Part shown: in pieces, positions 15,329-51,074 of the stretch
Layout: each line of letters starts with the position of its first letter
Position numbering within the stretch: the first letter of the stretch is position 1
From: Agarivorans litoreus
GTDB lineage: Bacteria > Pseudomonadota > Gammaproteobacteria > Enterobacterales > Celerinatantimonadaceae
Direction of reading: 5' to 3'
DNA length: 64,000 nucleotides
NCBI RefSeq assembly: GCF_019649015.1
Contig: NZ_BLPI01000001.1
Coordinates: 434,001-498,000 of the forward strand
Notes under the pieces: generated by a model
The model's database searches: none
What the model was told of the DNA's origin: nothing
Seen by the model: only the letters and a program-made list of their open reading frames with translations
Program-made: the position numbers and the translations under genes

Positions 15329-16507
15329 TTAACAAGACAGCAATTGATGCACCTGCTTAGCTCGCTCGCCCCAGCTTTCTGAACGCACACTCAATCGTTG
15401 AAAAGATGTTCTACGCTGTTGTAAAGCAGATGGCGTTTGCAAACTTTCCTGTAATGCTTGCACCATTTGATAGGCTTCCTCAACCTGTGTCACCATGCCA
15501 GCATAAGGTTTAAGCGCAGGAAAAGGCGTGCTTACAATAGGGCGCCCCGCGGCTAAATACTCACGTAACTTTAGGGGATCACAAGAAGCAATCTGCTTAC
15601 AGCTTTTAAAGGGTAACCAAGATACCTGCCAATGTTGCACATAACGTGGCAGCTCACTATGGGCCACTGCTGGGTACACTTCTATATTGTCTACCAGTTT
15701 AAAAGCAGAGATATCGGTTTGCACTTGACCAATAAATACAAAACGCCACTCAGGTAAGGCTTTAGCGACTTTAACGATTAACGGAATATCTAACCAAGCG
15801 GCTATGGAACCATAGAAACCAGCAACCGGCCCCCCCTTTAAAATAGACGGTGCTGGGCGCGAAGGGCGCACAAACAAACTGTAGTCTACTCCGTGCGGTA
15901 AAATACGGGTTTTCAAAGCTAAACGCGGCTGCTTAGAGAACTTACGTAACAACATATCGCTAGCCACTAGCACGTGGTCAGCCTTTTCAACTAACTGCTT
16001 TTCACACTCAGTAACATGTTGGTGGTCTACGCCAGCTAGGGCATTAAAATCATCACCACAGTAATAAATGACCTGCCGCTCGTTTAGGTGGCCTAACATA
16101 TCCACCGCTGTTGGTAAGGCAATCCAAAGATCAGGATTAGTTAACTTAAGACGCTTAACCTGTTTTTTTACCTGAGCTTTTAACAAGCAGCGGTTAAGCC
16201 AGCGAAAAAAACGACTACGTGGAGCGGGCAAGGCTATGGGCGACAATACATGAATATTGGCCGGCTTTTTAGCTGATGCTTTTTCTGTAGAATCTTGAGC
16301 AATTGCGTTGGCTTTTGTTGCTCCAAACATCGACTTCATTTTTTCTAGTACTCTTTTAGCATCTCGCAGGCTCAAGCGTGGCCTACGTAAACCAATAGAA
16401 TTAATCCAAAGAATACGGTGGTTTTTAGCCAGTTCGGTTATCACGTGTTGGCTGCTACTTGGGTGGCGTTGCCAATCTTCACCAAATACTATGAGATCGT
16501 GTTTCAT
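15329..16507 (-). CDS. Glycosyltransferase (SypN-like position)
   Basis: A 392-residue cytoplasmic glycosyltransferase of the GT-B fold. It starts at MKHDLIVFGEDW, has GFYGSIAAWLDIPL at the start of the nucleotide-binding half and LREYLAAGRPIVSTP near the C-terminus, where GT4-type enzymes hold the donor sugar nucleotide. Longer in-frame starts overlap the upstream acyltransferase and were rejected. The acyltransferase ends one base before this start, so the two form one unit under the sigma-54-type promoter at 17275. In V. fischeri a transferase (sypN) follows the acyltransferase gene sypM. Donor and acceptor are unknown. Confidence 0.82.
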   Translation of the reverse strand: MKHDLIVFGEDWQRHPSSSQHVITELAKNHRILWINSIGLRRPRLSLRDAKRVLEKMKSMFGATKANAIAQDSTEKASAKKPANIHVLSPIALPAPRSRFFRWLNRCLLKAQVKKQVKRLKLTNPDLWIALPTAVDMLGHLNERQVIYYCGDDFNALAGVDHQHVTECEKQLVEKADHVLVASDMLLRKFSKQPRLALKTRILPHGVDYSLFVRPSRPAPSILKGGPVAGFYGSIAAWLDIPLIVKVAKALPEWRFVFIGQVQTDISAFKLVDNIEVYPAVAHSELPRYVQHWQVSWLPFKSCKQIASCDPLKLREYLAAGRPIVSTPFPALKPYAGMVTQVEEAYQMVQALQESLQTPSALQQRRTSFQRLSVRSESWGERAKQVHQLLSC

Positions 16508-16508
16508 G

Positions 16509-17228
16509 TTATTTCCCCTCAATCGATTTAATGACTTTGGCGGGTACACCTGCGGCCAAAACACCTGCCGGCAAACTTTTAGTCACAACGCTACCAGCGG
16601 CAACCACGGTACCTTTACCAATAGTTACCCCAGCCATAACTGATACCCCGGTAGCTAACCAAACGTCGTCTTCAAGAATAACGTCGCCAACCTGCTCATC
16701 TAACTCGGGCAAGCCTGCAGCTCGTAGCTCTGCGTTTAAAGGATGACCAGGGTAGCCAGCAATAAAACAGCGCCCAGCTAAGCGTACGTTGTTTCCCAAG
16801 ATAACTTGCTTGCCAACGGCGATGGTGGTTTGCCAGCCTACATCCACGTTATCGCCAATCTTTAATAACGCGGGCTCAGCTGCACTGCTTCGTCCACTAA
16901 AGGTGGTCGCCCCAGAAATTCGGCAGCGATTGCCTAATTCAATATTTAGGCCTTCACTAATAAGTGGCATTCCACCGTATAGATACAAGGCCTGAGAAGG
17001 GCCGCTGGTTTTACTTCTAAACAAAGGCGTCCACCACAATATGCGCAGCACACTGCTTAAGGCACTAGATAAACTGGTATGAAGGCGGTAAAGCACCGAG
17101 AACAACAATGGCACTTTAGGTAGCTGACATAACCTTAGCGCTTTCAAAAACCTAAATAGATTTTTTGCTACGGCAGAATCACTACTTTTTAGCCAATGCT
17201 TCGTATGATGAAAAAACATGCTGCTCAT
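16509..17228 (-). CDS. Hexapeptide-repeat acyltransferase (SypM-like)
   Basis: A 239-residue acyltransferase of the left-handed beta-helix (CysE/LacA/NodL) superfamily. The N-terminal 80 residues are variable. From about 90 on it shows repeated hexapeptide turns, ending in DDVWLATGVSVMAGVTIGKGTVVAAGSVVTK and AGVPAKVIK, the usual signature of O-acetyltransferases. It probably acetylates a sugar of the exopolysaccharide. First gene of a two-gene unit preceded by a sigma-54-type promoter and an enhancer-like dyad, like sypM in V. fischeri. Confidence 0.88.
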   Translation of the reverse strand: MSSMFFHHTKHWLKSSDSAVAKNLFRFLKALRLCQLPKVPLLFSVLYRLHTSLSSALSSVLRILWWTPLFRSKTSGPSQALYLYGGMPLISEGLNIELGNRCRISGATTFSGRSSAAEPALLKIGDNVDVGWQTTIAVGKQVILGNNVRLAGRCFIAGYPGHPLNAELRAAGLPELDEQVGDVILEDDVWLATGVSVMAGVTIGKGTVVAAGSVVTKSLPAGVLAAGVPAKVIKSIEGK

Positions 17229-17274
17229 AAAATTCCCCTTTTACAGGTAGGTGTGTTGTCTTAAGTTGTAGATA

Positions 17275-17289
17275 GCAGCATTTATGCCA
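17275..17289 (-). promoter_or_regulatory. Predicted sigma-54 promoter of the acyltransferase-glycosyltransferase unit
   Basis: The minus strand reads TGGCATAAATGCTGC, with GG and GC separated by exactly 10 bases as in -24/-12 promoters. It lies 47 bases before the ATG and 52 bases downstream of the dyad at 17341-17353. Confidence 0.72.
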
Positions 17290-17340
17290 ACAAACTAAGG
17301 TTAATATATTCAATAACTTAAAAGGGAAACAAAGAGCAAA

Positions 17341-17353
17341 TTGCAGTTTGCAA
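17341..17353. promoter_or_regulatory. LuxO/SypG-type enhancer dyad TTGCA-N3-TGCAA
   Basis: An exact TTGCA-GTT-TGCAA dyad upstream of a sigma-54-type promoter. It sits inside a larger inverted repeat (17334-17360) that, read on the minus strand, is followed by TTTGTTT and could also terminate the upstream flippase gene. Both roles are possible. The presence of the same dyad before other syp-like units favours an operator. Confidence 0.6.
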
Positions 17354-17368: not shown

Positions 17369-18790
17369 TCAAGCATAAGCCTTCTTAAAATGCATTTTGG
17401 GCTTTACCAATGGCATTGCCAATAGCAGCAACCAGCTTAAGCCAATGGCCGGTAATAGAGAGGTCCAGATAGAAGCCGCCATAAACGGAACGATTAAAAG
17501 CAAACCTAAAGGAGGGAGTAAAGCGCTTAACAGTAAAGCTACTTTATAAGGCAGAGCCTGTAAGCGTAAGCTCAGTAAGGTGAACAGTATAAAGCGCAAA
17601 GCAAATACACTGTTGGTGGCTACAATCAGCCCCCAAACACCCCACTTAGGTATAAGTAGGTAATACAAACCTATCGCCATCACCGCAGACAAAGCATTAA
17701 TCCGCGGCAGCCAAACAGGGCTATTTGGTAGGTAACAACCAATATCGGTTACTGATGTGGCTAGCTTAAAGCCTAGCGCCAATAGCATTAAAGGCAACCA
17801 TTCAATGCCACCTAAGTATTCTATTGGCAGCACCCACTTAAGCACTATGGGTGCAAACAAAGCGGCAGACAAAATCAATAACATCACCGCGAGCAGCAAA
17901 CGCTGATGAATCACACTCACTTCATTTACGCCATTGCTTTGTTGTAACACCGTAAACCGGCGTGGTAACCACCAGCTTTCCAATACACCAAATGCCATGG
18001 CCGTGGCCTCTACCACTTTAATCATAATGGCGTAATGGGCTAACGTTTCTGCGCCTAACCACTCTGCTAGTAGCAGCCGGTCTAAACCATGCATAATGAA
18101 TAGCGCGAGCGAAGCGCCAATTAAGCAACGTTGATAACTTAAGGTTAACTTGGCAAGGGCAAGATCTAACTTCAACTTCAACTGTTTGCGGCAAAACCAC
18201 AAACCAATACTTAAACCTAAAGCATTGGCACAAATGCTAGCAACAATCACCGCATCCATTCCCCAGCCCTGCTGCAAACCAAATAAAGTCATCACGACTT
18301 GGCAACTTGCTTGCGCCACAACTAAATAAAAATAACTGTCAGCGCGGCGCTCAATGCGCAGCCACATCATAATAGGCTGCAAAGAAATGGATAAAGCAAT
18401 AACCGCAGAAACGCCAGCTAACTGGATAAGACTTAACTGAGAGAATACCTCTAGCGGCACTAGGGCTAGTGCTGTTCCTGCCGATACGGCTAGCACCAGT
18501 CCGTAACTCAAACTTAATAAAACAGACGACGAAATAAGGTTCGCTTTAGCCACAGCATCTTTACACTCTGGGTAGAAACGTGGCAAAGCCCCTGCACTTA
18601 TTTCTAGCAGCGAACACAGAGAAAAAATCACTACCAGACTTTCTAACACGCCGTATTCTTGCAAACTCAAATAGCGCGTGGTGACTGGCAGCATCATTAA
18701 GCCAATGCCTTTTTGCAGAACCATGAGTAAGCCGTATATACCCATTTCCTGCAGCGACTGGCGAGCTTGCTTAAGCTTATTCCACAGCAT
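17369..18790 (-). CDS. Polysaccharide flippase (Wzx-like)
   Basis: A 473-residue integral membrane protein with about 12-14 hydrophobic segments and the N-terminal pattern of the polysaccharide biosynthesis/MATE-like family (GIYGLLMVLQKGIGLMMLPV, then TRYLSLQEYGVLE). It should flip lipid-linked repeat units across the inner membrane. Its start overlaps the stop of the upstream glycosyltransferase by 14 bases, so translation is coupled. Third gene of a three-gene unit whose promoter is predicted at 20817. Confidence 0.88.
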   Translation of the reverse strand: MLWNKLKQARQSLQEMGIYGLLMVLQKGIGLMMLPVTTRYLSLQEYGVLESLVVIFSLCSLLEISAGALPRFYPECKDAVAKANLISSSVLLSLSYGLVLAVSAGTALALVPLEVFSQLSLIQLAGVSAVIALSISLQPIMMWLRIERRADSYFYLVVAQASCQVVMTLFGLQQGWGMDAVIVASICANALGLSIGLWFCRKQLKLKLDLALAKLTLSYQRCLIGASLALFIMHGLDRLLLAEWLGAETLAHYAIMIKVVEATAMAFGVLESWWLPRRFTVLQQSNGVNEVSVIHQRLLLAVMLLILSAALFAPIVLKWVLPIEYLGGIEWLPLMLLALGFKLATSVTDIGCYLPNSPVWLPRINALSAVMAIGLYYLLIPKWGVWGLIVATNSVFALRFILFTLLSLRLQALPYKVALLLSALLPPLGLLLIVPFMAASIWTSLLPAIGLSWLLLLAMPLVKPKMHFKKAYA

Positions 18791-19742
18791 AATTGGCTCT
18801 CCCCGCTCGAATGCGAATTAACCAAAGTGCCCACTCTCGGCTTTGCCATTTACTAAAGCTGCTTACAAAATAATTATCTAGGGTTTGCGAGTCACTGTTG
18901 TTTAGCTGATATTTTTCGATGAGGTGCTGGGTAAAGCGCCAGTAACAGAGTAAATCGAACCAACTCACTTGAGTTCTTAACTGCAAATAAGCATGCCGAC
19001 AAAGCATTTCCAAACACAGCGGCGCAGCGTTAGGCAACAACTTACTTTGCTCCATGCGCTGCATAAAATCGCCAATAGATGACATACGCGCATACAAACG
19101 ATGTTTGTCGGCACCAGCGCGTCGACAAATGCCCTGCGGATTATGCCGATAAAAGTAGTAAGCTTGCTCAATATGCACCACGGTATCCGCGAACAATTCG
19201 GCCATGTAAGAGAAAATTTCATCTTCAAATAACTCTCCTTGTGGAAATACTATTTGATGCTCATAAATAAACTCTCGACGAAATAGCTTGTTACATACCG
19301 AGGTATTCTCGCTAATATTTTGATGGGCATAGCACTCTACCCCCTGGGCAGAAAACTTACTAAAACCACAACTCACCCAATCCGCTTGCTGCCCACTGGC
19401 CTCAATAAACAAATGTTGATACATGTTTTCATCTACGTAATCATCACTGTCTAGAAATCCTAGATACTGGCCCTTAGCGTGGCTCATTCCAATGTTTCGT
19501 GCTTGTGCTAAGCCCACGTTTTTATCTAGCTTAACAATGCGAATAGCCAAATGGGATTGCTGAGCAAAACGCGTCGCTAGTTGATAAGCCTTATCCGGTG
19601 AAGCATCAATCACCACAATAACTTCAAGTGAACTTAGTTGCTGGTTTTCTAGGCTAGTTAAACATTCCCACAAATATTGCTCGGTATTAAACACCGGAAC
19701 CACCACCGACACACTGACCTGAGAAGCAAATACACTTTCCAT
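18777..19742 (-). CDS. Family 2 glycosyltransferase
   Basis: A 321-residue GT-A enzyme. Seen: VSVVVPVFNTEQYLWECLTS at the N-terminus, VIVVIDASPD, and the metal-binding FLDSDDYVDENMY near residue 95, followed by ELFEDEIF. It is about 40 percent alike by eye to the next upstream gene, so the two probably arose by duplication and add successive sugars. Its start codon shares a base with the stop of that gene (TAATG). Confidence 0.9.
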   Translation of the reverse strand: MESVFASQVSVSVVVPVFNTEQYLWECLTSLENQQLSSLEVIVVIDASPDKAYQLATRFAQQSHLAIRIVKLDKNVGLAQARNIGMSHAKGQYLGFLDSDDYVDENMYQHLFIEASGQQADWVSCGFSKFSAQGVECYAHQNISENTSVCNKLFRREFIYEHQIVFPQGELFEDEIFSYMAELFADTVVHIEQAYYFYRHNPQGICRRAGADKHRLYARMSSIGDFMQRMEQSKLLPNAAPLCLEMLCRHAYLQLRTQVSWFDLLCYWRFTQHLIEKYQLNNSDSQTLDNYFVSSFSKWQSREWALWLIRIRAGRANYAVE

Positions 19743-20746
19743 TATTTAGCTCCTTCACTACTCAAGCTGGGTGGTAACAGTCCTGCAGAAAACTGTTGTT
19801 TGAACTGGCGCGCCTTTACCCAATAACTCAGCAATACAATTTGTGTGGCCGAGCCTCTGAATTTTAAATAACGGCTTACTTTGTAGTCTTGGGGAACAAC
19901 TGCGCAGCGCTCAAGCAAACGGTACTTGCCCACTAGATGGTCGATAAAACTAAAGAAGCCCAACAAATCAACAGCCGAAATATGATAATAAAGTGCGCTT
20001 AAAGCGTGATTAGCTAAACACTGCAGCAGCTCCACCGCATGATCTTCAATAGCGCCCCTGCGCTCCATATCGGCTAAAAACCTTGCCAGCATCAACTGCT
20101 TATCATAGAGGTTGAATCGACCGTGGTTATCTCCACGGCACAAGCCTTCTGGGCTCATTCGGTAGTTGTAAAGCACTTGATTAACCTCAGCTACATTCTC
20201 GGTGGCAAAGCGTGCGGTATACGCAAAAGGTTCATCTTCAAAAATCACATTGCTATAAAAATTTATTTGCTTGGAAAGTAGATAAACACGACGAAATAGC
20301 TTGTTAGTCACAAAGGTATCGTCGTAATACTCTTTAGTAGGAATGTTGTGGTATTCCACACTTGAGGCATGCGTTTCGAAAGAGCGCATTTGGCAACTCA
20401 CCACGTCGGCATTGGTTGTGAGCGCTTTGCAAAACATCAGTTCAAACATATTTGGCTCTGCATAATCATCACTGTCTACAAAACCAATGTATTCACCCTG
20501 CGCCGACTGCATGGCAATGTTGCGAGCCATCGACACACCCACATTTTTTTCCAACACAATTTTGCGAAAGCGCTCTGGATACTGAATACAAAACTCGCCA
20601 GCAATCGCTGCGCAGTTGTCTGGAGAGGCATCAATAACTACTATTACCTCAACATGTTCGAGCGTTTGCTTGGCCAGTGAGTTCAAACAACTTGCTAGGT
20701 ACTGCTCAGATTTATAGACAGGAACAATAATAGATACGTTAAACAT
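19742..20746 (-). CDS. Family 2 glycosyltransferase (SypI-like position)
   Basis: A 334-residue GT-A enzyme with VSIIVPVYKSEQYLASCL, VIVVIDASPDN, FVDSDDYAEPNMF (the DxD metal site) and VIFEDEPFAY. First gene of the unit with a second GT2 and the flippase. A predicted -24/-12 promoter lies 71 bases upstream of the start codon, with a dyad enhancer farther up inside the end of the polymerase gene. In V. fischeri sypI also heads a sigma-54-driven unit. Confidence 0.9.
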   Translation of the reverse strand: MFNVSIIVPVYKSEQYLASCLNSLAKQTLEHVEVIVVIDASPDNCAAIAGEFCIQYPERFRKIVLEKNVGVSMARNIAMQSAQGEYIGFVDSDDYAEPNMFELMFCKALTTNADVVSCQMRSFETHASSVEYHNIPTKEYYDDTFVTNKLFRRVYLLSKQINFYSNVIFEDEPFAYTARFATENVAEVNQVLYNYRMSPEGLCRGDNHGRFNLYDKQLMLARFLADMERRGAIEDHAVELLQCLANHALSALYYHISAVDLLGFFSFIDHLVGKYRLLERCAVVPQDYKVSRYLKFRGSATQIVLLSYWVKARQFKQQFSAGLLPPSLSSEGAK

Positions 20747-20816: not shown

Positions 20817-20831
20817 GCAAAAGCTAGGCCA
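20817..20831 (-). promoter_or_regulatory. Predicted sigma-54 promoter of the GT2-GT2-flippase unit
   Basis: The minus strand reads TGGCCTAGCTTTTGC: GG-N10-GC with TTGC at -12, close to the sigma-54 consensus. Confidence 0.75.
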
Positions 20832-20895: not shown

Positions 20896-22290
20896 TTAGC
20901 GGCTTTTGCATTCTGCAATGGGTTGACGAAGTAGTTGAGCAATCGCCACCACTAAGGCAGTAAAAATATAGATAGGCCAAGTGAAGCCTTGAGTAAGAAA
21001 GGTGCCCGAAACAATGGTGCCTAACATACCCGCAAACACCCCTTCAGCGCAGGAGAACAAGCCAGCATGTTTGCTCGTGGCATGTTGTGCAAGGGTCTTT
21101 AGATTTTGATAGGCGAGCCGACAAACTTTAAATAGCAGCACGCAAAATACAATAAACCCCACAAAACCTGTTTCTGCTAACACCCCAAACCAAGTGCTAT
21201 GAACGGCATGGTTTTTACCGTCCCAGTGAGATGAGAAGAAATAGTAGTTAGCATAAAAGTTATCAATACCAACCCCGGTAATGGGATTATATAAAGCCAT
21301 CTTAAAGGCAGCCTGCCACGCATAAATTCGGCCCATTGAAGACTCATCAATTCCCGACTCGGCCGCCCCACCCGAGCTACGCTCCGACACCCCAGCCAGA
21401 ATAAACAATATCGGCAAAGCCAAGGCGCCGGCGCTAATTAGCAGCGCCTTATTTTCTACTCTTCGCCATGCTAGCACTGCACAAATGGTGGCAATGCCTA
21501 ACAATCCACCTCGGCTTTGAGTGGCCAAAATGGCCAAGATAATCGCTCCAGCACATACAATGGCCAGCAAACGAGTAAACGAAAAACCTCGCTTTAAGCT
21601 AAAAGCTAAGGCAAAACCTAAGGGAAACTGCAAGGTTAAGGCGAGGTCGTTTGGGTCTCCAAGTACCGAACCCATCGAGCGGCCAATGGTTACTCGGGTA
21701 CCCTCTACCATCTCTATACCGGCGGCGGCATTTTGTAAGGCAACAGTCGCAATCATTAAGCCACAAACAAAAAAGGCAAGGGCTGCTCTCTCAAAATCTT
21801 CGGGGCGACGCATTAACCAAGCAATCGCCACAGTCATTAATGCAATCTTGCTAAATACCCCATTAAAATAAGCCATTGCTGTCGGTCTACTACTGGCAAA
21901 TATCACCCCCACCGCACACAAAGCCACAAACAACATTAAGCAGCTTAATTCTTTACTCCAGTAGATTTGCATTTTGCGAGAAATGAATAAATGCCAAGCC
22001 AAACAAGCTAAGGATGCAAGGGCCAATAATTGCGGAATGCGTAAAACATACAAGGCAGGAAAAGCTTCGTGTAAACGAAAAAATGAGAAACAAACAAAGC
22101 CAAGCACTACCCAGAACGGTTGTTTCATCACCATTACAACAAGCAAAGGAAGAACGCCTAAGGCTATTGGAATCAAGGGATTAGATAGCTTCAACCAAAT
22201 TAGAGCTACCAGCGCCACAACCAATAATGACCAAGCTAAAGGCTTAAGTCGCATTCCGCTATGGTCTTGATTTTTTAAGGCTGCTTTCAT
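20896..22290 (-). CDS. O-antigen ligase/polymerase-like protein (Wzy, SypL-like)
   Basis: A 464-residue integral membrane protein with about 10-12 hydrophobic segments and the O-antigen ligase (Wzy/WaaL) pattern: LATQSRGGLLGI, then a large periplasmic loop with GVGIDNFYANYYF and HAVHSTWFGVLAETGFVG, where the conserved His and Glu lie. It probably polymerises or transfers repeat units in the periplasm. It appears to be a single-gene unit with a sigma-54-type promoter in the inverted repeat at 22303-22350. An enhancer dyad for the next unit lies in its last codons. Confidence 0.88.
   Translation of the reverse strand: MKAALKNQDHSGMRLKPLAWSLLVVALVALIWLKLSNPLIPIALGVLPLLVVMVMKQPFWVVLGFVCFSFFRLHEAFPALYVLRIPQLLALASLACLAWHLFISRKMQIYWSKELSCLMLFVALCAVGVIFASSRPTAMAYFNGVFSKIALMTVAIAWLMRRPEDFERAALAFFVCGLMIATVALQNAAAGIEMVEGTRVTIGRSMGSVLGDPNDLALTLQFPLGFALAFSLKRGFSFTRLLAIVCAGAIILAILATQSRGGLLGIATICAVLAWRRVENKALLISAGALALPILFILAGVSERSSGGAAESGIDESSMGRIYAWQAAFKMALYNPITGVGIDNFYANYYFFSSHWDGKNHAVHSTWFGVLAETGFVGFIVFCVLLFKVCRLAYQNLKTLAQHATSKHAGLFSCAEGVFAGMLGTIVSGTFLTQGFTWPIYIFTALVVAIAQLLRQPIAECKSR
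20906..20918. promoter_or_regulatory. LuxO/SypG-type enhancer dyad inside the end of the polymerase gene
   Basis: An exact TTGCA-TTC-TGCAA dyad in the last codons of the polymerase gene, about 75 bases upstream of the -24 element at 20817-20831. Coding constraint could produce it by chance, but position and spacing match the other units. Confidence 0.55.
21967..21979. promoter_or_regulatory. Possible enhancer dyad with one mismatch
   Basis: TTGCA-TTT-TGCGA within the polymerase gene, about 325 bases upstream of the rightward promoter at 22304. One base differs from the dyad. It could be a distant enhancer for the divergent pair, or coincidence in coding sequence. Confidence 0.25.
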
Positions 22291-22303
22291 CTACATTACT
22301 CTC

Positions 22304-22318: not shown

Positions 22319-22334
22319 TTATGTAGCTGTATAA

Positions 22335-26989: not shown

Positions 26990-27001
26990 CGCATTGACCT
27001 C

Positions 27002-27547: not shown

Positions 27548-27551
27548 GGTC

Positions 27552-29672: not shown

Positions 29673-29717
29673 ATTCAATCCTATCGTTTACTTTGTGAGG
29701 CTAGTAATTGCTTATTA

Positions 29718-33901: not shown

Positions 33902-33910
33902 AGCTTCTCC

Positions 33911-37027: not shown

Positions 37028-37058
37028 CGCGTCGTTTCATCCTTGTTGCTAAGGTCTA

Positions 37059-37988: not shown

Positions 37989-37989
37989 A

Positions 37990-38688: not shown

Positions 38689-38728
38689 ATAAAACTCCAG
38701 TAATCGGCTAATTCAGTGATGCAAAGGC

Positions 38729-40867
38729 TTATAGAAAACCTAACAGCGCGCTAATAGTGACAATGCGGAACACATCTTCCATGCCTTGACGAGCCTTATG
38801 CCAGCCGCTTTCTTCACGTGATGGAATGTACACGGTGTCGCCAGCACGAATCACAGGCAACATGCCAAAATCACCGGTTTTAGAGAACTCAAGTAAGTTG
38901 AAGGTACGCGCTTGGTCTTTACAGCAAGACAGGTTTACCACGGTGATTTTCTCGGGGAAGCCATCGCTATCAACCCCACCGGCTTCGGCTAACAAGTCTA
39001 ATAGCGTCATGTCATCGTTAAAGCGGTAACGACCAGGTTTGTTCACCGAGCCAAGTACACGCACGGTGCGCTCTTTTTTCTCCGACAACCAGTTACGGTC
39101 TTTTTCAGGAATGTAGATAGAATCACCAGGTACCACGTTTGGCAGTAAGGACTCATCACCGGTTTCAAAGTACATCGCTAAATCTAATTTAGACACGCGA
39201 GAGTGTTTGCCATTGCGATGACTAATTCGCACATTGCTAATGTCGGCTTGCTCCGCTGGGCCATCGGCCGCAGCCAAAATGTCTAGGAAGTGCATGCTAG
39301 GGTCAAAACGGTAGCGACCAGGTGCAACGACTTGACCAAATACGTAGATAGAATCTTCAGAGCGCTGACGCACCCACTGCGATTTGTTGTCGCTTGGGTC
39401 ATCTGGCAATTGCGGCACCATAATAGTAGTTCCCGCTACTATGCGTGGCATGCTGTTATTGCTAATTTCACCGTTTAGGTAGGCGTTAAGGTCAAAGTTA
39501 ACCGAACGAGTATTGCCATTTGAATCGCTAAACAATACGGTAATTTTAGCCATATCGGCATTCGGTTTCGGGCCACCTGCATGTGCCAACAAATCCATAA
39601 GGTTCATCTCGTTGGCCCATTCAAAACGACCAGGACGATTAACTTCACCCATCACCTTCACTGCGCGATTAGGCGATACTTTAGTCCACGACTTTTCATT
39701 TAAATCGGTTTTCTCTGGGATAAAAATCGCATCGCCAGCGGCTATTTCGGGTAACTGAGAAATTCGTCCTTCGGTAAACGATTGCAAGTCAAAACGCTCT
39801 ACCGAACCATTACTACGAATCACACGAATTTGGCGAGTTTCAGCAAAACGGGTTGGGCCACCAGAGTTAGCTAGCACATCTAAAAAGCCAGCAGATTTAT
39901 TACCTTCGTAAGCACCGGGCTTAAATACTTCACCCATTACATACACGGTGTTTGCGCCCGCTTTAATCTCTTCTTCTTGCTTAGGTACAAAAATAGTGGT
40001 GCCAGCGCTTAAACGGGGCATCATCTGGCTATCGCCGGTATCTAAATAGCGTTTTAAATTAAATAGTTGCGGGTCACCGTTGATGATAACGCGGATCTGT
40101 TCAACACTGGCGTAGCGAGTCACACCACCTGCTCGCATTAGCATATCAACTAACGAGGCTGACTCTTTAAAGGAAAAGCTACCTGGGTTATATACTTCAC
40201 CAAATACTTTTACTGCAGTGCGATCTTCAGCGGCGTCGCCTTTATCGTTTAAGGCTTTTGGGTCAAAATCTACTGCTACATTGCCAATTTTAGGTGAGGC
40301 AGGAACAAACAGTACATCTAAAGATTCTAGCTCTGGCAGTACACTTAAATTGCCAGAATCTAAGTAGTGTTTATAGTTAAATACTTGTGTTTCATCTAAG
40401 CTTTCGCGGCGCAGTTGCATGCGGTCTAATTGCGCACCAGAACGTAAGCCACCTGCGGCTTGAATCGCCATCTGCACACCAGCACCTTGTGCCAACACTA
40501 CTTCACCAGGTTGGCCAACAAAGCCCAGCACACTAATGCGAATACGGCGCTCTTCTAACAATACTTTTAGGCCAGCAAGATCACGGTAAGCTTTCGACAA
40601 TTCGCGCTTAATCTTTTCTTGCATTTGCGCTTCGGTAAAGCCCGACACCATAATTGGGCCAACTTCTGGCAAAATTAAACGGCCATTGCGCCCTACTTCA
40701 AAATTCTTATCAAGCGAGGCTTCGCCGGGGAGAATTATTCTTACTACATCTCCCGCTTGCACTTGCGGCTTAGTGGTTTGCGCTTGGGCACTAAACACAA
40801 AACTCATAACCAAACCAAACAACATCCATGCTGCCACTATGTACTTACACAATTTAAAGAATTTCAT
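38729..40867 (-). CDS. Polysaccharide export protein with six SLBB domains (SypC/Wza-like)
   Basis: A 712-residue periplasmic/outer-membrane export protein with signal peptide (cleavage after SAQAQ), the PES domain (VQAGDVVRIILPGEASLDKNF), and six SLBB repeats, each marked by a V-x-G-x-V-x-x-PG turn (for example VFGEVYNPGSF, VMGEVFKPGAY, VMGEVNRPGRF, VFGQVVAPGRY and VLGSVNKPGRY). I chose the ATG with AAGGAGCTTGTC upstream; earlier in-frame starts lie in the OmpA gene. E. coli Wza has far fewer such repeats and is about half this size. The protein should form the outer-membrane secretion channel. Confidence 0.9.
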   Translation of the reverse strand: MKFFKLCKYIVAAWMLFGLVMSFVFSAQAQTTKPQVQAGDVVRIILPGEASLDKNFEVGRNGRLILPEVGPIMVSGFTEAQMQEKIKRELSKAYRDLAGLKVLLEERRIRISVLGFVGQPGEVVLAQGAGVQMAIQAAGGLRSGAQLDRMQLRRESLDETQVFNYKHYLDSGNLSVLPELESLDVLFVPASPKIGNVAVDFDPKALNDKGDAAEDRTAVKVFGEVYNPGSFSFKESASLVDMLMRAGGVTRYASVEQIRVIINGDPQLFNLKRYLDTGDSQMMPRLSAGTTIFVPKQEEEIKAGANTVYVMGEVFKPGAYEGNKSAGFLDVLANSGGPTRFAETRQIRVIRSNGSVERFDLQSFTEGRISQLPEIAAGDAIFIPEKTDLNEKSWTKVSPNRAVKVMGEVNRPGRFEWANEMNLMDLLAHAGGPKPNADMAKITVLFSDSNGNTRSVNFDLNAYLNGEISNNSMPRIVAGTTIMVPQLPDDPSDNKSQWVRQRSEDSIYVFGQVVAPGRYRFDPSMHFLDILAAADGPAEQADISNVRISHRNGKHSRVSKLDLAMYFETGDESLLPNVVPGDSIYIPEKDRNWLSEKKERTVRVLGSVNKPGRYRFNDDMTLLDLLAEAGGVDSDGFPEKITVVNLSCCKDQARTFNLLEFSKTGDFGMLPVIRAGDTVYIPSREESGWHKARQGMEDVFRIVTISALLGFL

Positions 40868-40877
40868 GACAAGCTCC

Positions 40878-41702
40878 TTATTTAACACGCAAAGCGTGCT
40901 GAGCGAGGATGTTGCTGTCAGCATCAATAACACTGATAGTAACGCGGCGGTTAGAATGGCGAACAGCATCGCTGTTACCTTCTAAATAGGGTTGTGAGTC
41001 TGCTACGGCAGCCACTTCGATTAGCTGCTGGTTCATGCCTAGTTCGGTCATAAACTCGGCTACGGCCTGTGCGCGGGCTAAAGATAAACGCTGCTTGTAA
41101 TTGTCATCGCCCTTGCTATCACTATGCCCAGTGATAATTAGCGACACCTTACTGGCTGCGATAATTGGCGTTAGATTACGAAGCTGGTCTTGGTAAGCAG
41201 GCGTAAGCTCGCTAGAGTCAAAAGCAAATTGATTATTGCTGTTTAATGCATCGCTAATGCTTACCATTAATTGGGAAGACTGAATATGTCCTAAACGGTC
41301 GGTTTGGCAAGCGCCACTCTCGGTTACGCGGTCCAAACGTTTTTCCAACATATTTAAAAAGTGCTGTTGAATTTCAAGGTCATTAGCGGCATCGAAAGTT
41401 AGCCCGCCTTCTAGTTCGCGCAAAATGCGCTGCTGCTGCATACGTGCTTGTGTAACCGATGCAGGGAAACATAGCTCTGCCCCTTCAAGCACCAATAAAT
41501 CTAACTGGTGTTTTACTAATACCGCCTCAAATTGCAGGCCATGTTCTGGGCCGAGCTCGCGAAGATCGGTGGTACCAGTGTCACCGTCCATCCAAGCCAA
41601 TATAGCGTGTTGATGCTCGGCAAAACCACCGCGTCCTTGTTCTGGCCAGGCGGTACAAGCTGTGGTCATGGTTAACAATACGGGGATGATAATGCTACGC
41701 AT
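40878..41702 (-). CDS. OmpA-family lipoprotein (SypB-like)
   Basis: A 274-residue lipoprotein: lipobox TTAC early, a helical region, and a C-terminal OmpA peptidoglycan-binding domain (about 155-265, with VSLIITGHSDSKGDDNYKQ, SLARAQAVAEFM and RHSNRRVTISV). It probably anchors the export machinery to the cell wall. Located between the STAS gene and the export protein gene, as sypB is in V. fischeri, with spacings of 21 and 10 bases. Confidence 0.88.
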   Translation of the reverse strand: MRSIIIPVLLTMTTACTAWPEQGRGGFAEHQHAILAWMDGDTGTTDLRELGPEHGLQFEAVLVKHQLDLLVLEGAELCFPASVTQARMQQQRILRELEGGLTFDAANDLEIQQHFLNMLEKRLDRVTESGACQTDRLGHIQSSQLMVSISDALNSNNQFAFDSSELTPAYQDQLRNLTPIIAASKVSLIITGHSDSKGDDNYKQRLSLARAQAVAEFMTELGMNQQLIEVAAVADSQPYLEGNSDAVRHSNRRVTISVIDADSNILAQHALRVK

Positions 41703-41723
41703 AATAGGCTCCTGGGGCTCAGC

Positions 41724-42086
41724 TTAAGCGGCGATTGAAGGTAAAGTTTCAGCGCTATCCGCTTGGCTAGCTAAGGTGTCAATCATGGTAATGATGTGAT
41801 CTACACGAAGCATAACCAGCAAATCTCGAGGCTGTTGTTGAGCACCAAGTAACACCAGTTGACCGCCTGCCGCATTAATGCGTTTAAACATAAATACCAA
41901 GGCGCCAATGCCAGAGGCATCTAAAAATTCTACTTGGCTCATATTCACAATTACCAATTTGCTAGCTGCGTCGGCGCAAATACCTTCGAAGGCTGCTTTA
42001 TGCTCGGCGCAAGACTCGGCATCAAATGCGCCAACAATAGAAGCGGTAAGGTTTCCTTGGTTTGAAGTAGTTAGTTGCATTTTCAT
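41724..42086 (-). CDS. STAS-domain protein (SypA-like)
   Basis: A 120-residue single-domain STAS protein of the anti-sigma-factor-antagonist family. The phosphorylatable Ser is kept in VEFLDASGIGALV. I chose the ATG six bases after GGAGCG; earlier starts have no ribosome-binding site. In V. fischeri SypA must be unphosphorylated to promote biofilm formation, and SypE controls that state. No SypE-like kinase or phosphatase is in the window. First gene of the regulatory/export operon. Confidence 0.88.
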   Translation of the reverse strand: MKMQLTTSNQGNLTASIVGAFDAESCAEHKAAFEGICADAASKLVIVNMSQVEFLDASGIGALVFMFKRINAAGGQLVLLGAQQQPRDLLVMLRVDHIITMIDTLASQADSAETLPSIAA

Positions 42087-42123
42087 AATTCGCTCCACAA
42101 TTCTTAATTTCAAGACTGATAAA

Positions 42124-42138
42124 GCGAGTTTTATGCCA
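42124..42138 (-). promoter_or_regulatory. Predicted sigma-54 promoter of the syp-like regulatory operon
   Basis: The minus strand reads TGGCATAAAACTCGC, with GG-N10-GC spacing. It lies 38 bases before the STAS start and about 92 bases downstream of the dyad at 42230-42242. Confidence 0.72.
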
Positions 42139-42224
42139 AACTAAAAATACTCAATAAATACAAAAAGATAGATATAAAAATGAGTGGTAGGGCGGGTTTT
42201 AAAATTAACAAATATTCTGATTTC

Positions 42225-42242
42225 GCAAATTGCAATTTGCAG
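42225..42242. promoter_or_regulatory. Enhancer dyad within a 16-bp palindrome
   Basis: GCAAATTGCAATTTGC (42225-42240) is a perfect palindrome. It contains TTGCA-ATT-TGCAG at 42230-42242, one base off the dyad, and reads the same way on the other strand. Non-coding. Confidence 0.65.
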
Positions 42243-46604: not shown

Positions 46605-48416
46605 TTATTGCCCTTTTCCCGCTAATACTACCCACACCGTTTTAAGCAGTACGCTTGTGTCTTGGTAGAGCCAAGAACTGCATTGACTAAGGCTTAATGC
46701 GTAGCAATGATCATAAACGAGCTTTTGTTTTACATCTTCGATTGAACAATCGTAGGCCAAGCTTACCTGCGCTAAACCGGTAATGCCGGGTTTTACGCCC
46801 ACTGTGCGTTCACTATAAAAAGGGATGGAGTTTTCTAGCGTTTGATAGAAAACTGGGCGCTCTGGTCGTGGCCCAACCAAAGACATTTCGCCTTTAAGTA
46901 CATTGATGAGTTGGGGTAATTCATCAATTCGGGTTTTACGTAAAAACCGCCCCACTCGAGTAATGCGTTTGTCTTGCTTTGCCGCCCAAACAGCACCAAT
47001 GCCAGATTCGGCATCGACCCGCATACTTCTAAACTTAAAAATGTCGAACAGCTGCACTACATTGTCAGACATTAAGCCTACTCGAGTTTGCTGGTAGAAA
47101 ACCGGCCCTTTACTATCCAGCTTTATGGCTAGTGCCACCAAAGGAAATAAGGGACTAAATACCAGCAGCAATATCGTTGCCCCCAGCACATCAAATAGTC
47201 TTTTACCCACGGCAACTAAGGGGCTTACAAAGCCACTTAAGTAGCGACGCTGTAGCTTTTTAAGAAGGTAATCTACACAGCCCATCATGCTAGAAAAGTG
47301 CCCTTCTACTAAATAATTTAGGCTGCCTATTGCGTTTGGTAGTTTTGCATTAGGCATAAAGCGCGGCAACATCGCTAAGCTGTAAGCCAAAACCTGCAAA
47401 GCAAATAACACCGCAAATATTGTAGATTGCGCAGCTAACACCATGGCCCCAAAAAAGCTGGTGAGCATAAATACAGGGATGGTTACTCGTAGGGCTTTGC
47501 CAGAGAAGAAAGTAAAGGCCACACCCTTGAAACGCGGTAGCAACATATGACGAAGACGAATGAGTTGCTGTAAGTTGCCCGCGCCAATGCGCTTTCTGCG
47601 GCTACGGTCTTGGCTGTCGGCGGCGTGTTCGAGCTCTAATGCGCGAATGTTGGGTTCGTAAACAGCCTTGTAGCCTTGGGCGACTATGTCCATGGGGATA
47701 ACAAAGTCATCGTTAATGGTGTCGTCTGGCATTACTCTAAATAGAGACTTTTTAATCAAATAAAATGCGCCATGTGCGCCCAATGGTGCACCCATGTTTG
47801 CCTCACAACGTTTTACTTCGCGTTGGTAATTCCAATAAGCCTGCTCTCCCACCGAACCAGGGCTTAGTAGATGATAGTAACCACACACTACGCCAACTTG
47901 TGGTTGGCCAAAATGCTGAGCTGCAATTAACATTGCGTCTACCGAAATAAGCGCTGATACGTCAGACAACGCCACAATATCGGCCTTGCTTTGCGAGATG
48001 TGTTGGTTAAGCACTGCCACTTTGCCTTGGTTTTGCAGCTGTTCGCATATCTCTATGGAAAAGCTGCAAAACGTTAAGTCTTCTAAACACGCTCTTGCCA
48101 CGCTGGCGGTATCGTCGCTGCAGCCATCGCATATCACTTTAATACTTAAGCGGTCTTCAGGGTAATCTAAAGTAGCGAGGTTAATCAGCTTTGCCGCAAT
48201 GTAATCTTGCTCGTTATAAGCAGGTATAAGTAACTCTATGCTGGGCAATTGCTGGTCTTGCTCGCGTTGGTGATATTTGCGCGCAACGCTTTGAATTTCA
48301 TCCTCGGCATTTTGCGGTTTGTCTTTGCTCAAAAGCTTTAACAACAAAGGATATAAAGCGTGATGATAAACCACCAAGAACATTGCGATTAAGGTTACAT
48401 AAATTAATGCGTTCAT
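46605..48416 (-). CDS. Glycosyltransferase 2 fused to phosphoglycosyl transferase (SypQ-SypR-like)
   Basis: A 603-residue protein joining two enzymes. Residues about 40-290 are a family 2 glycosyltransferase with membrane helices at both ends (IPAYNEQDYIAAKL, VICDGCSDDT, VALSDVSALI, HGAFYLIKKSL and NDDFVIPMDIV). Residues about 400-600 are a bacterial sugar transferase (KRLFDVLGATILL, GPVFYQQTRVGL, FKFRSMRVDAE, LRKTRIDELPQL, GEMSLVGPRPE and KPGITGLAQV), which starts a repeat unit on undecaprenyl phosphate. I chose the ATG giving MNALIYVTL; upstream frames overlap the preceding gene. In V. fischeri the two activities are separate proteins, SypQ and SypR. Confidence 0.88.
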   Translation of the reverse strand: MNALIYVTLIAMFLVVYHHALYPLLLKLLSKDKPQNAEDEIQSVARKYHQREQDQQLPSIELLIPAYNEQDYIAAKLINLATLDYPEDRLSIKVICDGCSDDTASVARACLEDLTFCSFSIEICEQLQNQGKVAVLNQHISQSKADIVALSDVSALISVDAMLIAAQHFGQPQVGVVCGYYHLLSPGSVGEQAYWNYQREVKRCEANMGAPLGAHGAFYLIKKSLFRVMPDDTINDDFVIPMDIVAQGYKAVYEPNIRALELEHAADSQDRSRRKRIGAGNLQQLIRLRHMLLPRFKGVAFTFFSGKALRVTIPVFMLTSFFGAMVLAAQSTIFAVLFALQVLAYSLAMLPRFMPNAKLPNAIGSLNYLVEGHFSSMMGCVDYLLKKLQRRYLSGFVSPLVAVGKRLFDVLGATILLLVFSPLFPLVALAIKLDSKGPVFYQQTRVGLMSDNVVQLFDIFKFRSMRVDAESGIGAVWAAKQDKRITRVGRFLRKTRIDELPQLINVLKGEMSLVGPRPERPVFYQTLENSIPFYSERTVGVKPGITGLAQVSLAYDCSIEDVKQKLVYDHCYALSLSQCSSWLYQDTSVLLKTVWVVLAGKGQ

Positions 48417-48426
48417 GATTATCCCC

Positions 48427-49509
48427 TTATAAGAAACGGTGGCGTAAGGCCGCGTAATTACGTGCGGTAGTGCGCAAATCGCCCGACTGCTTAACAAATT
48501 GGCGTGGATTTCCGCTACTTGGTTTTTCGAGCCTTTTCTCTAGAGCTTGCGCCATTGCAAACGCAGAACCAGGCTCTACCACAGTGCCAGTGCGTGGGCA
48601 CAAGGCTTCGGTAGAGGCACCTACATTAGTCACTACTGCTGGTACTTCACAGGCTTGCGCTTCTAAAATAACCAGCGACAAACCTTCAAAGTAAGACGGT
48701 AAACAAAACAAATCTAAACTTTGGTAAAAGCGTGGCATGCAATCTAGTGCGCCTAAAAAATGTACCCGATGGCTAAGGTGCAAACTCTCTACTAATTGCT
48801 CTAAACCTTGGCGTTGGCTGCCGTCTCCGGCAAAGGCCAAATGCACATCGGCAGGTAAAAATGGCAGCGCCTCAATTAATACGGCTTGGCCTTTCTCTAC
48901 TTCTAAACGCCCTGCACATCCAATTATTTGGCAGTTATTAGGTAAACCTAAGGCCTCGCGAGCGATGAGTTTATTGCCGGGGGTAAAACTGTGGGTGTCG
49001 ATACCGTTTTTAATCACTTGTACGTTTTCATCAGTTACACCTAAGGCAGTTTTTAGTTCACCAGCTACCAAATTGGCATCGGCCACTAGCATAGGTTTAA
49101 CCCATTTAAGAATTGCACCTTGCAAAATGCGACGGCGCTGCTGGCGCAAATGCCAGGCGTCGTGCTCGGTATGAATAACCACCTTAACTCTGGCTAAACG
49201 GGCAGCAATGCCGCCATAGATGAGCGGCCCAATGTGATGAGTATGCACCACTGGCACCGCCCAACGGCGAAACAAGTTGGTAAGTTTCCACAGGGTTTTC
49301 CAACTAAAACCGGCAGGCTTATTCAAAAACATGAGGCGGTCGGCAAAAGGAATCAAACGAGGCCATGCGGCTAAGGCTTCTTCTTTAGTACCTTCTAAAG
49401 AAATGATAATGCCTTGCTCATGCGCTTCTTCCATACGTTGCAGGTCAAGCGCCATAGTTTCGATGCCGCCAGGTTGTAAGTGTTGTACTACTTGGATCCA
49501 AATACTCAT
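48427..49509 (-). CDS. Family 4 glycosyltransferase (SypP-like position)
   Basis: A 360-residue GT-B enzyme: VVQHLQPGGIETMALDL, GCAGRLEVEKGQAVLIEAL and PSYFEGLSLVILEAQACEVPAVV with the E-x7-E pair. It lies between the Wzz-like gene (13 bases upstream) and the fused transferase (10 bases downstream), so all three share one unit. Donor and acceptor unknown. Confidence 0.9.
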   Translation of the reverse strand: MSIWIQVVQHLQPGGIETMALDLQRMEEAHEQGIIISLEGTKEEALAAWPRLIPFADRLMFLNKPAGFSWKTLWKLTNLFRRWAVPVVHTHHIGPLIYGGIAARLARVKVVIHTEHDAWHLRQQRRRILQGAILKWVKPMLVADANLVAGELKTALGVTDENVQVIKNGIDTHSFTPGNKLIAREALGLPNNCQIIGCAGRLEVEKGQAVLIEALPFLPADVHLAFAGDGSQRQGLEQLVESLHLSHRVHFLGALDCMPRFYQSLDLFCLPSYFEGLSLVILEAQACEVPAVVTNVGASTEALCPRTGTVVEPGSAFAMAQALEKRLEKPSSGNPRQFVKQSGDLRTTARNYAALRHRFL

Positions 49510-49522
49510 TGGGTCATCCTCT

Positions 49523-50953
49523 TTAATGCGATTCTTTAAGCGGCGGAATGCGGCTTAATACCGATACGCCTGCGATATCTTCAATTTCTTTAATGGTGCG
49601 TAAGCTTGAGTCTGTAAGCTCGGCAATCACCGCTAAGCTAATTCCTAGGGCTATGCCTCCCACCAAACCAGCAACAACAAACATCCATAAAGGCAAGGTT
49701 GAAGGGCCACTGGGTGTGTAAGGGCGGTCGATTATTTTGATCCGATCAGACTGTTCAAATACGCCAAGCGCACCGGTTACTTGCGCCATCTCATAGCGAG
49801 TGAGTAAATTTTCATAAAGGCTACGCTTAACCCGCAGGTTACGATTTAGAATGCGTAACTGCTTCTCTTGCTCACCCACCGATCCCACTTGGCGCTGTAA
49901 AGAAGACGCCAAACTGCGTAATTGCGAGACTTCTTCGGCCAGTGCATCGACTCGTTGGCGGGCAATCATTAAGGCTTCAACCTGCACAATCAGCATTTCG
50001 CCATTAGATTCGGTAATAGAAATTTGCTGCTGCAATAAAGCCGAACTGTCGTGGTTACTTACTGCCGATTCGGGCTGCGCTAATACTTGAGCTCGTTCTT
50101 CTTCTAAATGGCGCAATACCCGTTTAACCGCGAGAACTTTTGAGTGACCTTCGGTGTAGCGTGACATCAAGGTGGCCAACTCGGCGCGGTTAAGCACTAT
50201 TTGTTCTTCTAAACGGGTTAATACTGGGTTGGTGCGCGACAGTTGTTGGTCGATGCTACCTAAACTTTGCTTAGCTCCCGCTAGCTCCGCTTCTCGTTCA
50301 ATAAGGCGTTGGCGAACTTGAGATAAACGCTCAATGTTTGCCGAATGCTGCTCTGGTAATGCATCGGCATGTTGGGTGCGGTAAATTGCCAGTGCTTCTT
50401 CGGCTTCTTCTAACTCCATACTGCTTAGGCTTAAGTGCTCTCGCAAAAAGCGCTCAGACTCTTTAATTGATGAACGCTCCGGCGCTAGCAATTGCTCTAC
50501 AAAGTGCTTAGAAACGGTTTCTAATAACTGGCTCATGCCCTGAGGATTAGGCGATTTATAGTCGATGCGAATGAGATCTTTACCAACCTGACGAACACTT
50601 AACGAAGCCGATAATCGATTAATTACTTGTTCTTTTTTACTGGCGCTGTCGGTTTCAAACATCAAACCTTGTTCAATTGCCACTTCGCTTAAAACGTGGC
50701 GGCTGTGCAGTAGCGTGGTTAGAGCTTCCATGCGCCCTTCCACGTTGGCCGATACGGCTAAGTCTTCTAGAAATGGGTTTAAGCTGGCGGTTTCTTGCAC
50801 CAACATACTGGTATGCGAGGCATACTGTTTGTCGGTAAACATTGATACGAGTGCTCCCGCCACTGGCATCAGAAGTATTGGCAAGACAATTAAATAACGT
50901 CTGCGCCATAGCGCATCAACGATTAAATAAACTCTTGGTAATAATTCGCCCAT
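49523..50953 (-). CDS. Polysaccharide co-polymerase / chain-length protein (Wzz/GumC-like, SypO-like)
   Basis: A 476-residue protein with a membrane segment near each end (about 15-37 and 415-440) and long coiled-coil helices between (LEEAEEALAIYRTQHADALP, SQVRQRLIEREAELAGAKQSL, SEEDs not seen), then IDRPYTPSGPSTLP before the second segment, typical of this family. It sets chain length together with the SypD-like ATPase and the export channel. I chose the ATG seven bases after GGAG; an ATG 42 bases upstream lies inside the predicted sigma-54 promoter and lacks a ribosome-binding site. Confidence 0.87.
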   Translation of the reverse strand: MGELLPRVYLIVDALWRRRYLIVLPILLMPVAGALVSMFTDKQYASHTSMLVQETASLNPFLEDLAVSANVEGRMEALTTLLHSRHVLSEVAIEQGLMFETDSASKKEQVINRLSASLSVRQVGKDLIRIDYKSPNPQGMSQLLETVSKHFVEQLLAPERSSIKESERFLREHLSLSSMELEEAEEALAIYRTQHADALPEQHSANIERLSQVRQRLIEREAELAGAKQSLGSIDQQLSRTNPVLTRLEEQIVLNRAELATLMSRYTEGHSKVLAVKRVLRHLEEERAQVLAQPESAVSNHDSSALLQQQISITESNGEMLIVQVEALMIARQRVDALAEEVSQLRSLASSLQRQVGSVGEQEKQLRILNRNLRVKRSLYENLLTRYEMAQVTGALGVFEQSDRIKIIDRPYTPSGPSTLPLWMFVVAGLVGGIALGISLAVIAELTDSSLRTIKEIEDIAGVSVLSRIPPLKESH

Positions 50954-50984
50954 TACATTCTCCACTTGATTCAAGTGTTGAATA

Positions 50985-50999
50985 GCGAATTTCATACCA
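50985..50999 (-). promoter_or_regulatory. Predicted sigma-54 promoter of the Wzz-GT4-fusion unit
   Basis: The minus strand reads TGGTATGAAATTCGC, with GG-N10-GC spacing, similar to the regulatory-operon promoter at 42124. It overlaps the earliest possible ATG of the Wzz gene, which supports the later start. Confidence 0.7.
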
Positions 51000-51061
51000 A
51001 GATTATTTTAGATTATAAATCAGATATTTAGTGGCATTAAAAAGCAAATACTTAGGCCCAA

Positions 51062-51074
51062 TTGCATTTTGCAA
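51062..51074. promoter_or_regulatory. LuxO/SypG-type enhancer dyad upstream of the Wzz unit
   Basis: An exact TTGCA-TTT-TGCAA dyad, matching the LuxO consensus with A/T in the centre. It lies in non-coding sequence about 63 bases upstream of the -24 element. Confidence 0.75.

Follow-up and report, generated by a model that had tools for sequence, protein, structure and literature searches.

The syp-type locus and its five promoters

We analysed a 64,000-nucleotide stretch of Agarivorans litoreus DNA (contig NZ_BLPI01000001.1, positions 434,001 to 498,000; hereafter the window), in which parts of a syp-type polysaccharide locus span 15.3-51 kb, nearly all on the minus strand. Based on Pfam matches, these parts encode the STAS, OmpA and SLBB export proteins, hybrid kinase, sigma-54 regulator, glycosyltransferases (GTs), flippase, Wzy, Wzz and sugar transferase of a syp/scv locus; relatives of sypC are present in Vibrio and Aliivibrio syp loci. 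An earlier note, made from the sequence alone, had called the genes scattered. They are not dispersed over the genome but form interrupted blocks inside ~36 kb, and the interrupting genes are those for an amidohydrolase, a MerR regulator, a split IS4-type transposase, a chemotaxis receptor, PhnA and a methyltransferase. The regulator and five transcription units (P1 to P5), each with an enhancer-type dyad and a sigma-54-type (-24/-12) promoter, are listed below; promoter scores are matches to the 10 bases of TGGCAC-N5-TTGC.

46605..50995, minus strand: P1 unit, Wzz-type chain-length gene (sypO-like), GT4 gene (sypP-like), fused GT2 and sugar transferase gene (sypQ+R-like) (Pfam)
51062..51074, minus strand: P1 enhancer dyad TTGCAAAATGCAA (pattern scan; arms identical in 4/4 aligned Agarivorans regions)
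50985..50999, minus strand: P1 sigma-54-type promoter TGGTATGAAATTCGC, 7/10 (consensus scan; 32/32 scored bases identical in 4 aligned regions)
32468..42113, minus strand: P2 unit, genes for STAS (sypA), OmpA (sypB), SLBB/Poly_export (sypC), 37990, a phosphonate-binding-like protein, a hybrid kinase with Hpt (sypF-like) and SypG (Pfam)
42223..42235, minus strand: P2 enhancer dyad TTGCAATTTGCGA, conserved register, overlapping 42230 (scan and alignment)
42124..42138, minus strand: P2 sigma-54-type promoter TGGCATAAAACTCGC, 8/10 (consensus scan and alignment)
32468..33901, minus strand: SypG-clade sigma-54 response regulator, helix-2 triplet Ile450-Pro451-Lys452 (Pfam, tree, comparison of helix-turn-helix (HTH) domains)
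25931..29678, minus strand: P3 unit, DUF4842/GEVED-domain protein gene, 27002 and GT4 gene 25931 (Pfam)
29797..29809, minus strand: P3 enhancer dyad TTGCAAGATGCAA (scan and alignment)
29718..29732, minus strand: P3 sigma-54-type promoter TGGCTTAGCTCTTGC, 8/10 (consensus scan and alignment)
17369..20746, minus strand: P4 unit, two GT2 genes and a flippase gene (sypK-like) (Pfam)
20906..20918, minus strand: P4 enhancer dyad TTGCAGAATGCAA, in the 3' end of gene 20896-22290 (scan and alignment)
20817..20831, minus strand: P4 sigma-54-type promoter TGGCCTAGCTTTTGC, 8/10 (consensus scan and alignment)
15329..17228, minus strand: P5 unit, hexapeptide transferase gene (sypM-like) and a glycosyltransferase gene (Pfam)
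17341..17353, minus strand: P5 enhancer dyad TTGCAAACTGCAA (scan and alignment)
17275..17289, minus strand: P5 sigma-54-type promoter TGGCATAAATGCTGC, 8/10 (consensus scan and alignment)

Exact copies of TTGCA-N3-TGCAA, a LuxO-type enhancer, are present at 17341, 20906, 29797 and 51062, as the earlier note reported, and a fifth that it missed lies at 49113. The note had also placed a one-mismatch dyad at 42230; the site is there but in the wrong register, and the conserved one is the overlapping 42223 (ATTGCA-ATT-TGCGAA, minus strand), whose counterpart in Agarivorans sp. Toyoura001 is the exact TTGCAATTTGCAA. Thus, four of the five promoter dyads are exact and one has TGCGA. Their minus-strand centres read AAA (P1), ATT (P2), AGA (P3), GAA (P4) and AAC (P5), all-A/T in 2/5. 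The chance expectation of 0.06 given before was too low: dinucleotide-preserving shuffles of the window gave a mean of 0.41 exact dyads (standard deviation 0.65, largest 3), and none of 100 reached the observed 5. One-mismatch dyads, numbering 11 in the window, are not unusual (shuffle mean 7.1; 13/100 shuffles reach 11). Genome-wide there are 12 exact dyads, 5 of them within these 36 kb (binomial P 2.9e-8), and the reversed pattern, used as a control, gave 1 match in the whole genome.

All five -24/-12 elements (at 17275, 20817, 29718, 42124 and 50985) have the GG-N10-GC spacing claimed for them and score 7-8 out of 10 against the consensus; the dyad-to-promoter gaps are 62, 84, 64, 74 and 51 bases for P1 to P5. 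The pairing was then searched for throughout the genome as a relaxed TGCA-N3-TGCA followed by TGG-N10-GC 40-101 bases on. It precedes a gene start only at P1-P5, where the promoter is intergenic and the start follows closely. The other 10 of the 15 pairings comprise the opposite-strand reading at 42230, with no following gene, and nine inside open reading frames (ORFs) of at least 100 amino acids with no gene start after them; the reversed-pattern control gave 1 match in all.

Comparison with other Agarivorans genomes showed that 167/170 dyad bases and 135/136 -24/-12 bases are identical, against 813/1164 in the spacers. These footprint counts cover the 2-4 other regions per promoter that were BLAST-aligned, regions not aligning or not fetched being excluded. 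With a narrower BLAST query and two regions fewer, the counts were 149/150, 120/120 and 742/1016, respectively. A sypA site in G003, GTTGCA-TTT-TGCGAA, was found by scan in a region that did not align and is therefore outside the counts. The dyad at 20906 is not strictly intergenic because it lies inside the 3' end of the preceding gene, unlike the P4 promoter. The 49113 dyad is inside a glycosyltransferase gene (48427-49509) and is lost in 2/3 of the Agarivorans regions aligned there, and the promoter scan gave no -24/-12 element near it; at 49113-49132 two dyads overlap (49113 exact, 49120 with one mismatch).

The earlier note had matched the unit heads to those of V. fischeri. This is correct for sypA and the sypM-like gene, whereas sypO (not sypP), a GT2 gene and the DUF4842-domain gene head the other three units. 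Gene 37990 occupies the sypD position and has no Pfam match. The first start codons of two head ORFs, at 50995 (sypO-like, inside the promoter element) and 42113 (sypA-like, just ahead of the expected transcription start), would be too early for that reason, and the true sypO-like start should be downstream of 50995. Directly upstream of sypA, a chemotaxis receptor gene (42308-44227) is also seen in 4/5 other Agarivorans regions (G001, G002, G004 and G005; not seen in G003). An IS4-type transposase split over two ORFs (31028-32338) separates sypG from the DUF4842 gene; the distance between these two genes is ~2.8 kb in the window and ~1.4 kb in G001 and G002. Where the sypL-like gene (20896-22290) and a GT2 gene (22344 onwards) diverge, two overlapping sigma-54-like elements in opposite orientations (TGGCATTCAGCTTGC, 9/10 each) make up an inverted repeat at 22303-22350 whose 20-base arms are perfect. 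Three other Agarivorans have kept this repeat, with changes on both arms in one of them and on a single arm in another. A dyad with G in its half-sites lies at 21967 within the sypL-like gene.

The DUF4842/GEVED-domain protein heading the P3 unit is a candidate matrix protein; we take its DUF4842 domain to be the one named LruC, and no paper on DUF4842/LruC was found in an open-licence literature search. A DUF4842-type homologue (40-44% identity) lies upstream of, and divergent from, sypA-B-C in six Aliivibrio loci (L111, L112, L113, L117, L119 and L127), and in Alginatibacterium the DUF4842 gene adjoins sypG and is preceded by the same dyad and a 7/10 promoter. These placements fit a matrix-protein role.

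Seven exact dyads lie outside the window. Five (L006, L008, L009, L011 and L012) were rejected as regulon members, having no -24/-12 element that scores 7/10 up to 150 bases away (that of L009 is 152 bases away, inside its ORF). L010 was rejected as well, its dyad lying 10 bases before an ATG, and L007 was kept as a candidate. Upstream of a gene 0.66 Mb away (L293; G000:C1:1124493-1125203, with a weak PEP-CTERM match of 19.7 bits, below the cut-off of 20.7), there is a perfect 15-base dyad TTTGCAATTTGCAAA (G000:C1:1124325-1124339) with a TGGCAY-RAAA-N3-GATA element. Seven Agarivorans genomes were searched; in all six that have the gene the element is readable, and so is a dyad-like site, damaged in one (L295). 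L293 is possibly a sixth regulon member, a candidate only because its -12 reads GA, not GC.

The SypG-clade regulator and half-site types across lineages

The product of 32468-33901 contains receiver, sigma-54 AAA+ and Fis-type HTH domains (Pfam). Its other matches in the A. litoreus genome are 37-42% identical, none exceeding 42% among the matches listed. A careful tree was built without the HTH columns, leaving out L135, L084, L087, L213, L214, rows >530 amino acids, two outgroup rows and some Agarivorans, and thinning the Vibrio SypG and LuxO rows. In this tree the protein is placed inside a 43-row SypG clade (support 100/97) and outside the Vibrionaceae LuxO clade (12 rows, 100/100); a quick full-length tree supported the SypG clade at 88. 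The SypGs of Vibrio and Enterovibrio/Grimontia are nested among lineages with G-type sites (95/91), and L077, labelled LuxO from its neighbour genes, is outside both clades at an unresolved fork. By the V. fischeri definition SypG goes with TTCTCA-N3-TG enhancers, and all five sites here are of the TTGCA-N3-TGC type; the putative SypG is so classed on clade and gene context, not on its enhancers. The earlier note's proposal that this regulator controls all five units is supported comparatively: by the clade, by the kept dyad and promoter bases and by the same half-site in lineages with a similar helix 2, which together point to such control.

With E<=1e-100, two SypG/LuxO-class proteins were found in 18/20 Vibrionaceae genomes with a syp locus, one in Candidatus Enterovibrio escacola and none in Photobacterium galatheae. 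Among 20 non-Vibrionaceae genomes, 18 have one and 2 have none. A search for Qrr RNA in the A. litoreus genome found none, a weak negative because 14 control genomes gave none either; the Rfam Qrr model matches beside LuxO at L076 and L078, the two Vibrionaceae LuxO loci scanned, and not at L077.

To compare enhancers across species, we scanned sypA promoters for TT..CA-N3-TG..AA-like arms before a -24/-12 element, leaving half-site positions 3 and 4 free. The syp loci were found via sypC (80 from named records, more from class, order and Alteromonas-family searches), and 15 duplicates were dropped (L064, L068-L071, L219, L220, L222, L225, L226, L228, L247, L268, L270 and L274). Each locus is represented by its top-scoring candidate; L138 and L148 have a perfect TTCTCA-N3-TGAGAA ranked second, and the top site of Aliivibrio fischeri is the hybrid TTCTCA-TTC-TGCAAA.

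The base at position 4 followed the SypG helix-2 triplet. The 34 loci outside Vibrionaceae whose triplet begins with Ile (I-type) gave G in both half-sites in 25, TG in 1 and no site in 8, so that 25/26 with a site are G-type (TTYGCA). With V[LI][NST] (56 loci), T stood in both half-sites in 44, mixed G/T in 5, C/T in 2 and no site in 5; T in both, typically as TTCTCA, thus characterizes 44/51 Vibrio/Aliivibrio loci having a site. The eight VLK loci (Enterovibrio/Grimontia) gave TT in 3, mixed TG in 3 and none in 2. The triplet changes in parallel with the sites, as IP[KQE], VLK and VLN. Six VAK, VVQ, VPR and VPK loci, with regulators 38-55% identical, were kept apart (5 without a site, 1 GC), as were 33 loci whose fetched stretch contains no SypG: GG 11 (only L102 Vibrionaceae by title), none 9, GC 6 (L231-L236), TG 3, TT 2, AT 1 and CC 1. 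The sypA promoters of L231-L236 (family f25) carry a third site type, TTGCA-N3-TGGYAA.

The top site of LuxO's own divergent promoter was GG in 15 of 20 Vibrionaceae genomes (none in 3, other in 2). In 13 of these genomes LuxO has a GG site and syp has a site as well; the syp site was TT in 9, mixed in 4 and GG in 0.

Residues specific to Vibrio/Aliivibrio SypG, i.e., rare (<=5%) in G-type SypG and LuxO, occupy 7/53 positions in the HTH and 16/424 elsewhere (Fisher P 0.008, with domain bounds and thresholds of our choosing). This count left out rows >540 amino acids, outgroups, L135, L084-L087, L188, L213, L214, L217 and a stray ORF, and seven 'other' rows were not compared. Four of the positions are clustered (450, 451, 452 and 455), three of them shared by Enterovibrio/Grimontia; by analogy with LuxO and Fis, HTH helix 2 would begin with them. 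SPSTxYRKxQ, the motif of the recognition helix, hardly differs among the SypG and LuxO proteins compared. An alanine scan of V. cholerae LuxO showed that Ile411, Val420 and Ile425 are needed for binding; the two residues after Ile411 are not among the eleven needed (PMC11407668). Those three residues correspond by motif to SypG 450, 459 and 464 here. The two residues after Ile411, not being among those needed, would therefore be plausible places to tune specificity. The third triplet residue (K versus N/Q) was rejected as the sole determinant, since G-type sites are retained with IPQ (Ferrimonas and Agaribacterium) and with IPE (L260). Alteromonas sediminis (L150/L217), with VVQ, may be an independent second switch; it has one TTCTCATTATGAAAA site, and no sypA site was found. 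The hybrid site in an Immundisolibacteraceae metagenome-assembled genome (L151) was not used because no part of its contig matches SypG, which this genome encodes elsewhere.

Proposed regulation and the origin of the code

Very probably, the five dyads are enhancers through which the SypG-clade protein at 32468 acts on the five sigma-54 promoters, the G-type code is ancestral, and Vibrionaceae moved to TTCTCA as helix 2 changed. We infer that a phosphorelay, probably via the adjacent hybrid kinase, would activate SypG; phosphorylated SypG would bind the G-type dyads (TTYGCA-N3-TGCRAA) 51-84 bases upstream of the promoters and, by looping, open the sigma-54 closed complexes at P1-P5. The proteins for export, assembly and synthesis of the biofilm polysaccharide and the DUF4842/GEVED-domain protein would then be made together.

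The TTYGCA-type dyad would be the enhancer code ancestral to the SypG/LuxO class, and is probably the ancestral code of SypG. The half-sites mostly have G outside Vibrionaceae and in LuxO sites, and T in Vibrio/Aliivibrio syp, which suggests that syp of V. fischeri uses a derived, LuxO-blind enhancer code. Where SypG came to share a cell with LuxO, in Vibrionaceae, syp enhancers would have become TTCTCA-type as helix 2 went from IP[KQE] to VL[KN], insulating syp from LuxO; this could account for the escape of these biofilm genes from quorum-sensing control. We give even chances to a fuller history, in which SypG and LuxO inherited one code, lineages with a single regulator kept it, and syp of Vibrionaceae moved to LuxO-blind TTCTCA (IPK to VLK to VLN), while SypG kept reading LuxO sites and Enterovibrio/Grimontia represent a surviving intermediate. 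If true, this would explain why LuxO cannot turn on syp and why SypG can turn on qrr1.

Several observations weigh against the proposed change of code. It is essentially one lineage event, perhaps in two steps, and the many loci are for that reason not independent. Of 12 further regulators from syp loci, mostly of the Alteromonas family, nine are placed not in the 43-row SypG clade but at a fork with LuxO that the tree does not resolve. The approximately unbiased (AU) test, for which groups were defined after inspection of a tree, rejected a grouping of Vibrionaceae SypG with LuxO (P 0.017) but not the G-type SypGs as one clade (P 0.17), so that the direction of change rests on G in LuxO and other outgroups. 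Exceptions to the correlation are L238, with an I-type SypG and a mixed site, and the eight I-type loci without a site found. Photobacterium galatheae (L102), a member of Vibrionaceae, has a G-type sypA site and no SypG/LuxO-class match at E<=1e-100 (best 2.2e-89); its locus has no sypG between sypF and the next gene. Moreover, in V. fischeri the qrr1 substitution G-131T, at the same half-site base of one site, reduced SypG-dependent expression and left LuxO-dependent expression almost unaffected (PMC10162802). This is not what a simple model of insulation by one base predicts, though qrr1 has a second site in its promoter. G-type sites at qrr1 are still used by V. fischeri SypG, whose specificity would thus have broadened rather than switched.

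The difference in Vibrionaceae may instead reflect drift or lineage base composition, unrelated to LuxO. We consider this somewhat less likely than not. The single lineage event, the AU result of P 0.17 and G-131T (PMC10162802) speak for it, as does the lower GC content that G-to-T brings at the switch position; on the other hand, G is mostly retained at the LuxO sites of these genomes (15/20), HTH positions 450-455 change together while HTH changes exceed those in the rest of the protein, and Enterovibrio/Grimontia combine an intermediate helix with partly mixed sites.

That the dyads serve another enhancer-binding, Fis-like or other HTH protein while the SypG-like protein acts elsewhere is improbable. 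A genome search scored 26 of 58 enhancer-binding-type candidates, and all 26 match; however, sypG itself belongs to the P2 unit, the half-sites and SypG helix 2 vary in type together from lineage to lineage, no other match in the genome exceeds 42% identity among those listed, and the paralogue LuxO is reported on this very dyad (PMC10162802). Least probable of all, and in our judgement very unlikely, is control of the locus by a LuxO-type quorum-sensing circuit with the 32468 product functioning as LuxO. The dyads match the LuxO type and the helix-2 and recognition-helix residues are LuxO-like, but the tree places the protein in the SypG clade apart from Vibrionaceae LuxO, the gene lies within the syp operon, and no Qrr RNA was found in the genome (a weak point, given the empty controls); the Qrr model does match at two LuxO loci.

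The Agarivorans regulon is the likely unsplit state, and it directs attention to a single base of the half-site and a short patch in helix 2. How a cell keeps paralogous enhancer-binding proteins apart can seldom be followed at the level of individual bases. We found no report of this SypG/LuxO enhancer-code comparison, nor of a SypG-LuxO duplication, in the open-licence literature.

Comparison with known syp and LuxO systems

An earlier publication already describes syp-like loci of Agarivorans in which the last two genes form a fusion (scvN-scvO), together with scv/rbd loci of V. parahaemolyticus and V. vulnificus and syp-like loci in 28 genera (PMC8941931). The words 'motif' and 'enhancer' are absent from the main text of that paper. 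The five Agarivorans dyads would define a compact SypG regulon in a genus other than Vibrio, supported by footprint counts; it includes a candidate matrix protein and may have one more member beyond the window.

The syp enhancer of V. fischeri is TTCTCANNNTGMDWN, credited to Ray et al. 2013 in PMC10162802. Its system shares with that of Agarivorans the gene content, sigma-54 promoters at several unit heads, a SypG-clade regulator and the CA-N3-TG spacing. In contrast, Agarivorans has the half-site TTYGCA instead of TTCTCA, IPK instead of VLN in helix 2, interrupted blocks, a fused sypQ+R and a DUF4842-domain unit that has a dyad and a promoter of its own; the earlier note was right that the dyads, all five TTGCA-N3-TGC, are unlike those of V. 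fischeri and of LuxO type.

The LuxO upstream activating site at qrr promoters is TTGCAWWWTGCAA (PMC10162802). According to the same paper, V. fischeri SypG shares the LuxO sites at qrr1 while syp promoters are not activated by LuxO, through a mechanism described there as still to be determined. The Agarivorans dyads have the same arms as the LuxO sites and a similar distance to the -24/-12 element, but they serve polysaccharide genes and, very probably, a SypG-clade protein, and their centre is not all A/T in 3/5 (P3, P4 and P5).

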